A stretch of DNA of 64,000 nucleotides from Nitrospira sp. (GTDB taxonomy: Bacteria > Nitrospirota > Nitrospiria > Nitrospirales > Nitrospiraceae). The translations under genes and the position numbers were made by a program. This document shows positions 24,079 through 43,315 of the stretch, one piece after another. The DNA lies in contig CP126123.1 in the NCBI GenBank assembly GCA_030123605.1, forward strand, positions 4,183,237-4,247,236, given 5' to 3'. Position 1 is the stretch's first letter. Each line of letters starts with the position of its first letter. The notes beneath the pieces were generated by a model. The model saw nothing but the letters and a program-made list of their open reading frames with translations, made no database searches and was not told where the DNA came from.

Positions 24079-24107
24079 TTGTCGGACAACAGGGGATGTC
24101 CGGAATC

Positions 24108-24268
24108 GCATCTCGTCTCGTACACACCCTCCGACCTTGTTTGATAGGTTGAGCGCCGACGGCCGTTCTCATCCGACGAATGTCCGATCGCGTCCTCATC
24201 GGTGTAGACAGGAGAGAGCATCCACTTGCCGATGCGAGCAGTACGAGTAGCATGACGGCATGGATCAT
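24108..24268 (-). pseudogene. Frameshifted copy of a small lipoprotein gene
   Basis: Read on the minus strand from ATG 24268, the product starts with a signal and lipobox (MIHAVMLLVLLASASGC, then SLLSTPMRT). The frame then breaks near 24190, where one base present in the copy at 25363-25524 is missing. In the shifted frame the homology resumes (IGHSSDENGRRRSTYQTRS, then GVYETRCD). The two copies match closely at the DNA level over about 160 bp, so this is a decayed duplicate lying just after DnaG-like B in convergent orientation. Confidence 0.7.
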
Positions 24269-24360
24269 CACGGTTTTCGTTTGCCGATTCTTCAAGAATT
24301 CACTCTTGGAGGCAATGCGTCAGCTATGCCAGCCTACCAGTTCGCAACGACGAAGCGCAC

Positions 24361-25332: not shown

Positions 25333-25524
25333 CTACGAAGCCTGGGCAGGGCCGCCGTTGTCGCATCGCGTTTCGTACACACCCGCCGACCTCGTTTGAT
25401 AGGTCGAACAACGCCGGCCGTTCTCATCCGAGGAATGTCCGATCGGCGTCCTCATCGGTGTAAAGAAGGGCGCGCATCCACTGGCCGAGCTGGCCAGCAC
25501 CAACACTACGATCACACGGGTCAT
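25333..25524 (-). CDS. Small lipoprotein, intact copy
   Basis: The 63-residue product from ATG 25524 has a hydrophobic signal and a lipobox-like SASGC (Cys17). A short mature part follows (FFTPMRTPIGHSSDENGRR, then CSTYQTRSAGVYETRCD). The copy at 24108-24268 is nearly the same but frameshifted, so the gene was duplicated around the mazEF module. No family or function is recognised. The two mature cysteines (in RRCSTY and ETRCD) could form a disulfide in the periplasm. Confidence 0.55.
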   Translation of the reverse strand: MTRVIVVLVLASSASGCAPFFTPMRTPIGHSSDENGRRCSTYQTRSAGVYETRCDNGGPAQAS

Positions 25525-25615
25525 CAGATTGCTTCTGCCTACACTTCGGAATGCCTGTTCGGTTCGCATGAGAAGGGCTCTCCCGAGCGCCAAGGCAACT
25601 GTCTTTCGGGTCGTC

Positions 25616-37775: not shown

Positions 37776-38621
37776 ATGAAGGTTGTCTTGTTTTGTGGGG
37801 GCCTTGGCCTGCGTCTGCGGGATTACTCCGACAAGATTCCCAAACCGATGGTGCCGATCGGGTATCGGCCGATCATCTGGCACCTCATGAAGTACTACGC
37901 GCATTTCGGCCATACGGAATTCATTCTCTGTTTGGGGCACGGCGGCGATACGATCAAAGAATATTTCCTCAATTACAACGAATGTATTTCGAATGACTTC
38001 GTGCTGAGCGAAGGGGGGAAGGCCATCCGGTTGTTGAATGCCGACATTCAAGGTTGGCGGATTACGTTCGTAGATACCGGAATCGGTACCACGATCGGTC
38101 AGCGGCTCAAGTTCGTGGAGCATCATATCGGCGACGACAACATGTTTCTCGCCAACTATTCGGACGGCCTTACGGATTTGCCGCTTCCGGAACAGGTTGC
38201 CCATTTTATGATGCACGACAAGGTTGCGAGTTTCCTCTGCGTGACGCCTCGACTGAGTTGCCACTTGGTGGAATTGACGAGGGATGGGAGGGTGTCCGGC
38301 ATCGAGGAGTTCACCCATTCACAGGTCCGTATCAACGGCGGCTTCTTCATGTTCAAGCGGGAAATTTTTCAATACTTGAAAGACGGGGAGGAATTGGTCC
38401 AGGAGCCTTTCCGGAGACTCATCGAACAGAACCAACTGGTCGGCTATGAATATGACGGGTTTTGGGCCTCGATGGACACGTTCAAAGACAAGATGTTGTT
38501 GGACGATCTATATGTCCGAGACAAGGCGCCTTGGGCTCTGTGGAAACAGCGCGCGAATCTCGATCCGGGCGACGCTTACCTCGGTAGGCAGGGGTATCTC
38601 AAGAAGGCGAAGGGATTTTAG
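37776..38621 (+). CDS. rfbF: Sugar nucleotidyltransferase, glucose-1-phosphate cytidylyltransferase-like
   Basis: The 281-residue protein begins MKVVLFCGGLGLRLRDYSDKIPKPMVPIGYRP, the nucleotide-binding loop of sugar-1-phosphate nucleotidyltransferases. The pattern with FCGG(L/M)G(T/L)RL and later FLANYSDGLTDLPL and VRINGGFFMFKREIFQYL is closest to glucose-1-phosphate cytidylyltransferase (RfbF), which makes CDP-glucose. The typical G-T in GGxGTRL is G-L here. The gene is followed 6 bp later by a PIG-L deacetylase gene, which suggests a surface polysaccharide or glycolipid pathway. Confidence 0.75.
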   Translation: MKVVLFCGGLGLRLRDYSDKIPKPMVPIGYRPIIWHLMKYYAHFGHTEFILCLGHGGDTIKEYFLNYNECISNDFVLSEGGKAIRLLNADIQGWRITFVDTGIGTTIGQRLKFVEHHIGDDNMFLANYSDGLTDLPLPEQVAHFMMHDKVASFLCVTPRLSCHLVELTRDGRVSGIEEFTHSQVRINGGFFMFKREIFQYLKDGEELVQEPFRRLIEQNQLVGYEYDGFWASMDTFKDKMLLDDLYVRDKAPWALWKQRANLDPGDAYLGRQGYLKKAKGF

Positions 38622-38627
38622 CGCGAC

Positions 38628-39293
38628 ATGATCTTCGACGGACGTGCCAGGCATGACGGCAACGGGAAGGGACCCTATTCGGTACTCTGTCTCGGGGCAC
38701 ATGCCGACGACATCGAAATCGGATGCGGCGGCACCATCCTGCGCCTGATTCAGACGTTCGGTCGGAACGTCGAATTCCATTGGGTCGTCTTCAGCGCTCA
38801 GGCGGCCAGAAAGCGGGAAGCGGCGGCAGGGGCCGGGCGGTTTCTCAGCCGAGCCCATCAAAAGACCGTCATCGTAAAAAAATTTCGCGACAGTGTCTTC
38901 CCCTATTCCGGCCCGCGCATCAAGTCTTGTTTCGAACAACTCAAACAGATCTGCTGTCCCGACCTGATTTTGACGCATTATCGGGACGATCTCCATCAAG
39001 ATCACCGCATGATCTCAGACCTCACCTGGAACACCTTTCGTGATCACCTGATTCTCGAATACGAAATTCCCAAGTACGACGGGGATCTGGGTTCGCCTAA
39101 TTTCTTCGTCCCGCTCGATCGTACCACGTGCAGGAAAAAAATCGACGCCATCATCGATTGTTTTGGAACGCAACGCCGCAAACAGTGGTTCTCGGAAGAT
39201 ACGTTTTTGTCGTTGATGCGGCTCCGGGGCATCGAATCGAACGCCCCCGATAAATATGCCGAAGCGTTCTATTGTCGGAAACTCGTGGTGTAG
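38628..39293 (+). CDS. PIG-L/LmbE family deacetylase
   Basis: The 221-residue protein has the zinc-binding motif AHADDIEIGCGGTI near residues 21-35, a variant of the usual AHPDD, and the later HxxH-type ILTHYRDDLHQDHRM. This family removes N-acetyl groups from amino-sugar conjugates. The proline of AHPDD is Ala here, which is tolerated in some members. It is placed directly after the nucleotidyltransferase, consistent with modifying a sugar or glycolipid. Confidence 0.83.
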   Translation: MIFDGRARHDGNGKGPYSVLCLGAHADDIEIGCGGTILRLIQTFGRNVEFHWVVFSAQAARKREAAAGAGRFLSRAHQKTVIVKKFRDSVFPYSGPRIKSCFEQLKQICCPDLILTHYRDDLHQDHRMISDLTWNTFRDHLILEYEIPKYDGDLGSPNFFVPLDRTTCRKKIDAIIDCFGTQRRKQWFSEDTFLSLMRLRGIESNAPDKYAEAFYCRKLVV

Positions 39294-39559: not shown

Positions 39560-40993
39560 ATGCCTGCACTGACCCGATTTGCGAACATGGTCATCGTGAC
39601 GGTGGGATGCCTTGCGGCATGCTTCGCCCTGTACCTGCTGCATCGTCATGGATGGTCCCGTACGTATGTCGTCTTACTGGGGTCGGCCGGATTGCTGTTC
39701 GCAGGTCTACGTCTCGCGTCGACGGTGAAAATCTCTCTGAGCCTGCTGATCGCCACAATGTTCATTTCGCTCTATGGTGTGGAAGCTCTTCTTCGCACGC
39801 TCCTGTCTCCGGGACTTACCTGGGAGGACATTCACGATCAGACTCGCGGCCTGGCTTGGTCTCGCGACCAGATCGATGATCGTGCTCAACGCGCGATCCA
39901 AGGCGGCCAATCGTTTGATGCGCGCGATCGGTTGCAAGTCATTAAGGACATCGAGGCGCACGGCCTGACTGCCTATCCCCCCATCGCCGGAAACGCCTAC
40001 ATCGAGTATGAAGGGACACAGATCTTGCCGCTGGCCGGCATTTCTCAGACGACGACCGTCTACTGTAACGAACTCGGCCAGTACACGATTTATCAGAGCG
40101 ATGAGCACGGCTTTCACAACCCTCCGGAATTGTGGTCGCACCAGCCCGTCGAGATTGCGGTCATCGGTGATTCATTTGTGCATGGAGCCTGCGTTCCCTC
40201 GGAAAAAAATTTCGCGGCGCTGATCCGCTCGCACGTGCCGCGCACGCTGAATCTTGGAATGGGCGGGATCGGCCCGCTACACGAATTGGCCATCCTCAAG
40301 GAATATGGCAGCGTGATGCGGCCCAACGTCGTCCTCTGGGTGTATTACGAAGGCAATGATCTCGCCGATCTCTCGCATGAAAAGAACGGGTTTTTTCGCG
40401 CCTACCTCACGCGAGGTCCGTTTCAAGGCCTCATTTCAAAGCAGGCAGGCATTGATGCAGGGTTGATCGGCACCATTCGGCAGGTCCGACAGGAGGTCGA
40501 ACAGGCCAAGGTCCAGGAGAATTTCCCGGACCAGATCGAACAATTTATGAAAGTGGATGCGCTTCGTAAGCGATTCGGCCTGCTCTTCGCGCGAGTAACC
40601 TCGTCGGAACTGGATGACACGTTGGACGTCTTGACGTCCGTCCTGCAAGAAGCGGTTGCGCTCACTGGGACGTGGGGGGGAAGGGTGGTGTTTGTCTATC
40701 TTCCTCACTATGGACGGTATACCAATACGTGGCTCGCGGACATGGATCGTGAACAAGTGCTCGTCCGAGTGCACCGGTTGAACCTGGATGTCATCGACCT
40801 CAGTCCTGTCTTTGCTGCACAGTCCGATCCCTTGAAGCTCTTTCCGTTTCGCAGCCCAGGACATTATACGGTCGAAGGGAATCAGCTTGTCGCCGAGCAC
40901 ATTTTGTCGGGACTTTCTAAACTTTCGCAGGCTAGGGCTGTACCTGTCTCTTCATCCGACCCTGCGCGACTTGGGCGGCGGAGTGACCCATGA
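39560..40993 (+). CDS. Membrane-anchored SGNH/GDSL-like hydrolase
   Basis: The 477-residue protein has three hydrophobic segments in the first 85 residues (MVIVTVGCLAACFALYLL, YVVLLGSAGLLFAGL, ISLSLLIATMFISLYGV). An SGNH-type domain follows, with nucleophile block I VIGDSFVHGACV, block II-like GMGGIGP and block III VLWVYYEGNDLADL. A C-terminal SPGHYTVEGNQLVAEHI carries the His. Such proteins are often O-acyl transferases or esterases of surface polysaccharides. The preceding nucleotidyltransferase and PIG-L genes fit that role, although a 266-bp gap separates them. Confidence 0.78.
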   Translation: MPALTRFANMVIVTVGCLAACFALYLLHRHGWSRTYVVLLGSAGLLFAGLRLASTVKISLSLLIATMFISLYGVEALLRTLLSPGLTWEDIHDQTRGLAWSRDQIDDRAQRAIQGGQSFDARDRLQVIKDIEAHGLTAYPPIAGNAYIEYEGTQILPLAGISQTTTVYCNELGQYTIYQSDEHGFHNPPELWSHQPVEIAVIGDSFVHGACVPSEKNFAALIRSHVPRTLNLGMGGIGPLHELAILKEYGSVMRPNVVLWVYYEGNDLADLSHEKNGFFRAYLTRGPFQGLISKQAGIDAGLIGTIRQVRQEVEQAKVQENFPDQIEQFMKVDALRKRFGLLFARVTSSELDDTLDVLTSVLQEAVALTGTWGGRVVFVYLPHYGRYTNTWLADMDREQVLVRVHRLNLDVIDLSPVFAAQSDPLKLFPFRSPGHYTVEGNQLVAEHILSGLSKLSQARAVPVSSSDPARLGRRSDP

Positions 40994-41081
40994 ACATGTC
41001 ATGAGGTCCGATTCACGGCCACCGTTGCTGAGTCTCGCCCTGTCGATCTGTATCGAGCGTATGACCGAGGATGTGCCAGAT

Positions 41082-41297
41082 TAGCCCACATTATTCACGA
41101 CGGTTCGTGACGAAACCGCCAAAACGCCAGGCGAGGCGGGCACGTGGAGCCGTGAGGAAGGGAGGCATACTTGATACAGTCTGTCGACCGACCGAGCGAC
41201 GAGCCTGCCCGCTTGGATGTCGGAAACTGGCATCCAAACTTGTCGTAGCGGTGGATCGGCGATTTGCAGTAGAAGCGGCCATGAATAATGTGGGCTA
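41082..41297. mobile_element. 216-bp MITE-like element with terminal inverted repeats
   Basis: The segment begins TAGCCCACATTATTCACGAC and ends GCCATGAATAATGTGGGCTA. The ends are inverted repeats, with the outer 16 positions exact and 18 of 20 overall. Between them is 176 bp with no real gene, although several frames are open. This is the form of a miniature inverted-repeat transposable element. I did not identify a parent transposase or a clear target duplication. The right end supplies the TAG stop codon of the M28 peptidase gene, so insertion may have trimmed or changed that C-terminus. Confidence 0.65.
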
Positions 41298-42851
41298 GGG
41301 GGCATCGGCGAGTTGCCAAGCCAACGCGAGTACGTAACGGGCCGCGGCAGAGAGGATGTCGGGATCGACGGTGTCCGCAGTATCGGTGGGTTGATGAAAG
41401 TGCGGATGAACCCCGCCGCTCACGACCGTCACCGTGGGGACTCCCGCATCCTTGAACGGCACGTGGTCTCCACCGGGGAAGAAGCCGAACAGGTCGATGA
41501 TGTCTGCGAGTCCTGCCTGTTGTCCCGCCTGCTGTGCGACGGTTTTTTCCAGGCCGGTCACGCCGACGGTGAGACGCCCGTTTCCGACCGCCGCGTGATC
41601 CACATTGATCATCGCGAGGGTGGAGCGCAGCGGCACGGCCGGTTGAGTCACGTATAGGGTGGAGCCCAACAACCCCTGTTCTTCGCCGCTGAAGGATACA
41701 AAGACAATCGAACGTTTGGGGCCGTTCGGAACCGACGCCAACACCCGCGCCACTTCAAGGAGTACGGCGGTGCCCGACGCATTGTCGTCGGCACCTGGAA
41801 AGAGCAGTCCCCCCTGTTGTCCAAAGTGATCGCGATGTGCGCCGATCACAATCGTTTCGTCCCGGCGTATCGGATCCTGCCCGCTGATGATCGAGACGAC
41901 ATTGTGAAGCATACTATCCTGCTGCAGACTGCGCCACAACATCTTGACGGACAGGTCGGTAGCCAACGAGCGCGGCGTCATGGTTTCGTTGAGTTGCTGT
42001 TGTATGGTGCGCAACCGGCCGGCGCCGTCCGGTCCTGGTGTATTGAGAATGGAGGAGGCAAGTTCGGTACTGATCCAGGCACCGGGAATCGCTTGCCCAG
42101 GGGCGGGCAAGCCGTAGAAGGCGCTCGGTCGCCCGGTCACACCGCGACGAGTTTCATAGGCATTCAAGATCGGACCGACGGCTGTGAGGTAACCGATAGC
42201 CCCTCGCTCGCGCGCCGTGCGTTCCTTGTTCGCGTGGGGAACCGGTTTGCCGTAGCGTTCCGGTTTGCCTCGGAGGAACAGGACCACCTTGTTCCGGACG
42301 TCGAGTTCGGCATATTCATCGAATCCGCCGGTGGGGTCGGAGATGCCGTAGCCTACGAACACAAGAGGGGCCTGCAGATCGGCCGACGGCGAATCGAGGA
42401 TGGGGAGGTAATCGGTGCCGATTGAAGCTGGCTGATGGTCGGCTAGGGGTGAGATCTGCAGGAGAGGATCATGGCCGATCGTCGTGACGCGGACTGGGGC
42501 GGATTGGATCACGTCTCGGTTTAGGAGTCCCTCTGCCTCGGTCGGGGAACCGGAGGCCGCCGTGCGCTGCCGGTTCAGGTCGATAAACCGAAGCTGAGCG
42601 AATTCGGCGGACGACAGGTCGTCGGGGGTACCGGTTTGACGACCGTTGAACTCCGGTCCGCTCAGCCTGCGGATGTCCGCCACCATGCGGTCGCCGGAAA
42701 CCATGCGCAACAGTTGCGTGAGATGGGTGCGTTCGTCGGGCATGTCGTCTGCGAGACTTACTGTGGCAAACAGGGCGAGTCCGAGGCCGAATATGAGCCC
42801 GACGGTTGTACGTTGGAGATTCCCAACCGATATGAGGAGGCGACATCGCAT
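41295..42851 (-). CDS. Exported M28-family zinc peptidase
   Basis: The 518-residue protein has a signal peptide (residues 1-35, ending VSLADD). A protease-associated-like insert follows (about 150-240: LVFVGYGISDPTGGFDEY...). The M28 domain has its co-catalytic zinc ligands in GAHRDHFG, GADDNASGTAVLLEVAR, SFSGEEQGLLGS, INVDHAAVGNG and GVHPHFHQPTDTADTV. It should act as an aminopeptidase in the periplasm. The stop codon lies in the terminal repeat of the adjacent MITE-like element. The start overlaps the end of the DUF5069-like gene by one base. Confidence 0.88.
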   Translation of the reverse strand: MRCRLLISVGNLQRTTVGLIFGLGLALFATVSLADDMPDERTHLTQLLRMVSGDRMVADIRRLSGPEFNGRQTGTPDDLSSAEFAQLRFIDLNRQRTAASGSPTEAEGLLNRDVIQSAPVRVTTIGHDPLLQISPLADHQPASIGTDYLPILDSPSADLQAPLVFVGYGISDPTGGFDEYAELDVRNKVVLFLRGKPERYGKPVPHANKERTARERGAIGYLTAVGPILNAYETRRGVTGRPSAFYGLPAPGQAIPGAWISTELASSILNTPGPDGAGRLRTIQQQLNETMTPRSLATDLSVKMLWRSLQQDSMLHNVVSIISGQDPIRRDETIVIGAHRDHFGQQGGLLFPGADDNASGTAVLLEVARVLASVPNGPKRSIVFVSFSGEEQGLLGSTLYVTQPAVPLRSTLAMINVDHAAVGNGRLTVGVTGLEKTVAQQAGQQAGLADIIDLFGFFPGGDHVPFKDAGVPTVTVVSGGVHPHFHQPTDTADTVDPDILSAAARYVLALAWQLADAP

Positions 42852-43315
42852 CAGAGGGAGGTGGCGGAAGCCTTTTGTGCCGACCAGCGTTGATACCACC
42901 GCCAGATCGGGGGTTGCAAAAATCGTGGAATGGGGTACCCCAGTCCGCGGACATACCCGTCATCTCGGTCCAGGACCACAAACGCCAGCCGGTATTTCTC
43001 GCGGAACAGGGCACAGCGCGCCTCGACCTCTTCATCGGTGAGGTGTAGGTGTCGTCTGATCGCTGCACCGATAGCATCGTCCGTTACCGTCTCACGAACA
43101 AGCTGTTCGAGAAAGGCAGGAGTGATTTGGAATCGGCGCATGAAAGATTGATCCAACGCCGAGGGGTAGGCATAGGTTCCCAGCGTGTCGGCCTGGAAGG
43201 CGCGTACCTTGTCGAGCAATCTGGGCAACCAGATCAGGCCAGCGAGGGACTCGCTCCATCGGCGGGGGGGATGCTCACGAAGATTCATCGACGGGGTTTC
43301 TTCCTCACCTGTCAT
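42851..43315 (-). CDS. DUF5069-like protein
   Basis: The 154-residue cytoplasmic protein includes LIWLPRLLDKVRAFQADTLGTYAYPSALDQSFMRRF and a helical second half (FLEQLVRETVTDDAIGAAIRRHL). The 'LpRliDKaRa' opening resembles DUF5069 proteins, whose function is unknown. It is followed by the M28 peptidase gene with a one-base overlap, so the pair is co-transcribed. An internal Met at residue 10 (MNLREHPPRR) is a possible shorter start. Confidence 0.6.
   Translation of the reverse strand: MTGEEETPSMNLREHPPRRWSESLAGLIWLPRLLDKVRAFQADTLGTYAYPSALDQSFMRRFQITPAFLEQLVRETVTDDAIGAAIRRHLHLTDEEVEARCALFREKYRLAFVVLDRDDGYVRGLGYPIPRFLQPPIWRWYQRWSAQKASATSL

Follow-up and report, generated by a model that had tools for sequence, protein, structure and literature searches.

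The window, meaning the whole 64,000-nucleotide stretch of Nitrospira sp. DNA that was analysed, contains a miniature element that is non-autonomous and whose ends match those of IS1380 elements. It is very probable that this element transposed into a CTAG providing the stop codon of an M28 family peptidase gene, and that a 4-bp target duplication kept the stop. The element proper is non-coding and 210 bp long (41085-41294, no strand assigned), reading CCCACATTATTCA...TGAATAATGTGGG, with boundaries placed by the target-duplication analysis and by the empty site of a related genome, G001. Its exact terminal inverted repeats are 13 bp (CCCACATTATTCA) and occupy 41085-41097 on the plus strand and 41282-41294 on the minus strand. 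Window sequence and empty site together place the two copies of the duplicated target outside them, TTAG at 41081-41084 and CTAG at 41295-41298 (both read on the plus strand), the second of which includes the TAG of the peptidase (41295-41297, minus strand). The peptidase frame occupies 41295-42899 on the minus strand (Pfam PF04389, E 1e-38), and its product is 534 aa long from the first possible start and ends in QLADAP, a C-terminus shared with many orthologues.

The earlier note drew the unit as 216 bp with exact 16-bp terminal inverted repeats overlapping the peptidase TAG. The repeats and the overlap are present as described: the 16-bp motif TAGCCCACATTATTCA matches at 41082-41097 (plus) and 41282-41297 (minus) with zero mismatches, where shuffled windows give 0.09 matches each even with up to three mismatches allowed. 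While the repeat positions hold, the length needs correction, as the 216 bp comprise the 210-bp element and three of the four duplicated bases at each end. The longest listed frame on the element is 75 aa and no transposase gene is encoded. The element lies between two gene ends, those of the leftward peptidase and of a convergent 477-aa frame (39560-40993), for which a Pfam search returned no match.

As the peptidase stop overlaps the repeat as first drawn, the note had proposed that the terminal repeat supplies the stop and that the peptidase may have lost its natural C-terminus to the insertion. Such an imported stop, truncating or replacing the end of the protein, can practically be dismissed. 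The peptidase search gave matches in 55 of 61 genomes, and loci were obtained for 30 of these, own genome included, leaving 29 orthologues for examination. Without the element, all but one (28/29) end at the residue where the window's peptidase ends, the outcome that the note itself had named as speaking against an acquired stop; the exception, L135, ends nine residues later. No family end was present within 350 bp downstream of the peptidase in any of the 29 loci. The nearest orthologue, in G001 of the same genus, is 90% identical and has its TAG in the same place. Its empty site is CCCCC-TAG-TCC, within gatgccccc-TAG-TCCGGCGCATC, and the window on the same strand reads gatgccccc-TAG[CCC...GGG]CTAA-TCTGGCACATC, so that the G001 sequence past the TAG runs straight into the window sequence beyond the element. 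Because 28 of the 29 orthologues end alike and the empty site already has the TAG, the claim of a new stop and a new C-terminus is wrong. On this evidence, the C-terminus is not replaced, and the TAG is the ancestral stop of the host gene, present in duplicated target DNA and not derived from the element.

Further copies, which the note had suggested looking for, are numerous. BLAST with the element gives 42 own-genome matches; apart from the element itself, the two top copies are 94% and 93% identical to it. Of the 61 genomes searched, 34 contain matches (own included). On the own chromosome (4.32 Mb), 54 loci with family ends were counted by a separate pairing procedure with up to three mismatches allowed, a tolerance at which some of these loci may be chance or decayed. 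The 16-mer itself has 34 matches there at one mismatch or fewer, with none for the reversed control, and a degenerate 19-mer has 83 at three or fewer, with none for its control. Copies in the own genome are mainly about 194 and 215 bp long, with others from 45 to 295 bp. A stricter-pattern scan across genome contigs found at least 117 stretches; among the 80 matches listed, the titles read Nitrospira, Nitrospiraceae, Nitrospirae or Nitrospirota, except for one 'uncultured Nitrosospira' NOB2. A plasmid collection searched with the element gave no match. Partial BLAST matches covering positions 1-131 were considered as ends of a longer transposon and rejected, as in the 12 loci inspected the family ends pair at MITE length and do not enclose a long element. 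The element is a MITE, being short and without transposase, with terminal inverted repeats, dispersed copies and target duplication, and the description 'MITE-like' is borne out by its many copies in the genome and the genus, by a target-site duplication across the family and by the empty site in a relative.

The extent of the duplication was read from the 4-mers at the two ends of each copy. In the own genome these are identical in 16 of the 24 pairs with TA at both ends (8.5 in shuffles, p = 5e-5). Own genome and relatives pooled give 65 pairs (32 from the own genome), a set that excludes the pattern-scan loci (all from L273 up); leaving out 24 pairs without TA at one or both ends, 28 of the remaining 41 are identical, compared to 16.0 in shuffles, and 1 of 20,000 shuffles reached 28. 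In several copies TTAG or CTAA takes the place of CTAG at both ends together. Across the pooled pairs, the base adjacent to the element is associated with the outer base on the element's far side (odds ratio 21, p = 2e-6), and the control comparison with the outer base at its own end shows no association (odds ratio 0.64, p = 0.75). The covariation between opposite ends and the identical 4-mers therefore indicate that four bases, YTAR, are duplicated and that the element begins at CCC. A pattern-chosen Nitrospira set, which is a biased sample, gives a weaker result, with 27 of 45 pairs identical (20.6 in shuffles, p = 0.007). The 4-mers differ in 13 of the 41 pooled pairs, the window pair included. 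That pair (TTAG/CTAG) differs by one base, and since G001 has CTAG at the empty site, the left TTAG probably reflects one change after insertion.

Duplication of TA only was the first model and was dropped on the 4-bp identity and the cross-element covariation. It would make the family an IS630/Tc1-mariner-type MITE, with the G or A beside the TA belonging to the element, and several features agree with this: TA is conserved at most ends, 13 of the 41 pairs have no 4-bp match, and at CTAG targets taken alone the empty site looks the same for a TA or a CTAG duplication. This assignment is nevertheless very unlikely, as the inner base covaries with the outer base across the element, the matching ends sit on IS1380 elements, and among 30 IS630-type (DDE_3) loci examined, drawn from matches in 22 of the 61 genomes, there is no transposase flanked by such ends on both sides. 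Of these 30 loci, L171 has a single unpaired family end, and L172 has, adjoining its transposase, weak matches paired at 32 bp. The former is on the own chromosome (G000:C1:1649113-1650183; L061, L171), where the DDE_3 transposase frame lies about 230 bp from the lone end at 1648886 and no matching family end is found on the other side of the transposase.

The full-length transposon with these ends that the note had also proposed to seek is represented by four IS1380 elements in two congeners; none was found in the own genome. The IS1380-family transposase model PF13701 has matches in 13 of the 61 genomes, 11 of them over the curated cut-off, and no match in the own genome, in which no IS1380 transposase was found. 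Ends matching the family occur on both sides in 4 of 23 PF13701 loci (L200, L213 and L217 in G028, L201 in G026), forming elements of 1.70-1.71 kb, and a few other loci have one matching end each. Two of the transposases were tested against the NCBIfam IS1380 model and match it at E 5e-110 and 2e-108. The flanks are TTAG/TTAG (L200), CTAG/CTAG (L213), CTAA/TTAG (L217) and CTAG/CTAG (L201), giving the same target duplication as the MITE in three elements and a mismatched pair in L217. The MITE thus shares with this family its outer 20 bp or so and a short target duplication. Beyond these outer bases there is no clear similarity, and the interiors have no demonstrable relation (best end-to-end z-scores of 2.8-3.6, inconsistent over the four copies). 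Derivation of the MITE by deletion from these four IS copies was considered, and the support for it is confined to the ends. For comparison, IS1247 from Paracoccus is listed as an IS1380-family member of 1672 bp with IR 16/13 and DR 5 in the part of the source available (PMC3281130); the MITE differs in having no transposase, an interior not recognisably derived from an IS, and a duplication of 4 bp, not 5.

An IS1380 transposase acting in trans is the likely mover of the MITE, going by the shared ends. Copies in the own genome may now be immobile because no IS1380 transposase was found there. Movement by a Y1 (RAYT) transposase, as a palindrome of the REP/REPIN type, would fit the palindromic character of the element and the existence of very short copies of 32-54 bp, but is exceedingly improbable given the observed target duplication and the match of the ends to an IS1380 element, whose transposase model is of the DDE type. 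The very short members are nearly just two terminal repeats (G000:C1:2752682-2752726, 45 bp; L162:4955-4986, 32 bp; L308:1036-1089, 54 bp).

The position of the peptidase copy is in itself ordinary; about a third of the counted copies in the own genome are similarly placed. Stop codons were counted with a home-made codon-score gene finder, used for both loci and background; it classed 80% of the sample as coding, and some genes are certainly absent from its output. At a threshold of 12, 18 of the 54 own-genome loci fall exactly on the stop of a predicted gene, some of these calls being weak (lowest scores 14, 16 and 17); among the loci with both ends found the count is 13 of 29. The background of 452 kb has 847 YTAR sites, of which 440 are coding, 337 intergenic and 70 in stop codons. 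The enrichment at stop codons has an odds ratio of 5.6 relative to all YTAR sites (p = 7e-7) and of 2.4 relative to non-coding YTAR sites (p = 0.009). The pattern-chosen Nitrospira set covers 80 of the at least 117 scan loci, with a pattern that demands YTAG at one end and genomes that overlap in part with the relatives used for the peptidase and element searches; 58 of its pairs are flanked on either side by about 400 bases, and 18 of these 58 lie exactly in stop codons. Gene stops number 18 at offset 0, and no other offset within 60 bp has more than two.

Eleven of the 18 stop-codon sites of the own genome are readable in G001, which has a stop (TAA, TAG or TGA) at the same codon in 10 of them; at site 692514 G001 has no stop codon at that place. 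At seven of the readable sites both element ends were found; in six of these G001 continues straight into the far flank, and in the seventh, 3597993, the far flank begins after about 40 bases. This last copy (G000:C1:3597993-3598206; L046, L107) has TTAA at both ends, its left TAA ending a predicted 597-aa frame and its right TAA a convergent 122-aa frame, such that one insertion kept two stop codons.

Target choice bears directly on these counts. CTAG makes up 10 of the 16 identical own-genome pairs, compared to 191 of the 847 background YTAR sites (p = 7e-4). In the sampled part of the own genome it occurs at 0.49 of its expected frequency, and 20 of its 191 background occurrences, about a tenth, are stop codons. 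On the simplest reading, a preference for CTAG together with the loss of insertions inside genes accounts for most of the excess at stop codons, and any extra preference or selection for them is modest at most.

The remaining excess over non-coding sites could also be read as retention of the peptidase copy for a 3'-end structure, such as a terminator, an RNase III site or a barrier to convergent transcription, serving the peptidase or its convergent neighbour. The location between convergent frames is in keeping with this, as is the fold of the whole element as a single strand, which is far better than that of shuffles (z = -5.9). The terminal repeats alone produce such a fold, however, and the two halves of the element fold no better than their own shuffles (z = -1.3 and 0.8). 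No terminator-like site was found in the element, an Rfam search of it gave no match, and it is absent at the 29 orthologous loci examined. Retention for this purpose is hence unlikely.

On the preferred reading, insertion with duplication of the target, the MITE inserted at the CTAG that forms the peptidase stop (C-TAG), and a 4-bp staggered cut duplicated CTAG, leaving the gene side with its C-TAG and thus its stop, while the remaining 3' flank was displaced 214 bp from the peptidase gene. YTAR is the same on both strands, and its forms CTAG, CTAA/TTAG and TTAA all contain TAA or TAG; for this reason, an insertion into such a stop leaves a stop whichever strand carries the gene. A broader reading, possible but tentative, is that the MITE family is adapted to a gene-sparing niche, with stop-codon insertion (about a third of loci) as a main survival route and its hairpin serving the host gene as a newly formed 3' untranslated region. 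This is suggested because the rare CTAG is favoured, about a tenth of its occurrences are stops, and the duplication preserves the stop on either strand. Independently of this broader reading, the insertion accounts for genes in these genomes that seem to end inside a repeat, the stop being duplicated target DNA and the protein intact. The family also offers a countable example of the way in which the choice of target allows small transposons to survive in a compact genome, and links a repeat widespread in Nitrospira to IS1380.

Gene-3'-end repeats that bear a stop without truncating the protein are already known. In the portion of the report available on BOX in pneumococcus, 36 of 58 overlaps between BOX and a gene lie at the gene's very 3' end, with the stop codon encoded by the repeat, and strong evidence of truncation is said to be missing (PMC3049150). 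The Nitrospira MITE resembles BOX, on those passages, in involving the stop at a gene's 3' end while leaving the protein untruncated; it differs in that the stop comes from duplicated target DNA and is not encoded by the repeat. RUP, also from pneumococcus, is described in the passages available as a short non-autonomous repeat whose terminal repeats tie it to an IS (PMC2229807), which is likewise the case here; its targets contain TA and its proposed partner is IS630-Spn1, as opposed to 4-bp YTAR and IS1380 for the Nitrospira MITE. For ISPsp10 (IS5 family, Pseudomonas), the text available describes a stop codon supplied by the target site, the TA of TAA being duplicated (PMC4133298). That stop serves the transposase, whereas in Nitrospira the host gene retains its own. 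As far as listings and passages of the open literature go, no paper on this Nitrospira repeat was found, nor was one found there that combines IS1380, CTAG and target site. A word search of the accessible text of a 2024 review of prokaryotic MITEs (PMC10969869) found Nitrospir-, IS1380 and stop codon absent. From the passages available, one Nitrospira inverted-repeat paper has its MITEs on dioxane-gene contigs, and one Nitrospira/IS1380 paper deals mainly with IS1634 and Acidiphilium; one Nitrospira paper on MITE and stop codon is, going by its title, about tRNAs.

Some minor features of the window were also observed. Taken from its first possible GTG (42899), the peptidase frame overlaps the end of a DUF5069 gene (42851-43315) by 49 bp, and the true start may lie downstream of that codon. 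At 37776-39293 is a frame resembling, by eye, a sugar-phosphate nucleotidyltransferase, followed by a PIG-L type deacetylase (PF02585). Two adjacent direct repeats of 85 and 81 nt, 88% and 70% identical, occur at 24106-24270 and again at 25361-25526, about 1255 bp apart, which suggests a local duplication.
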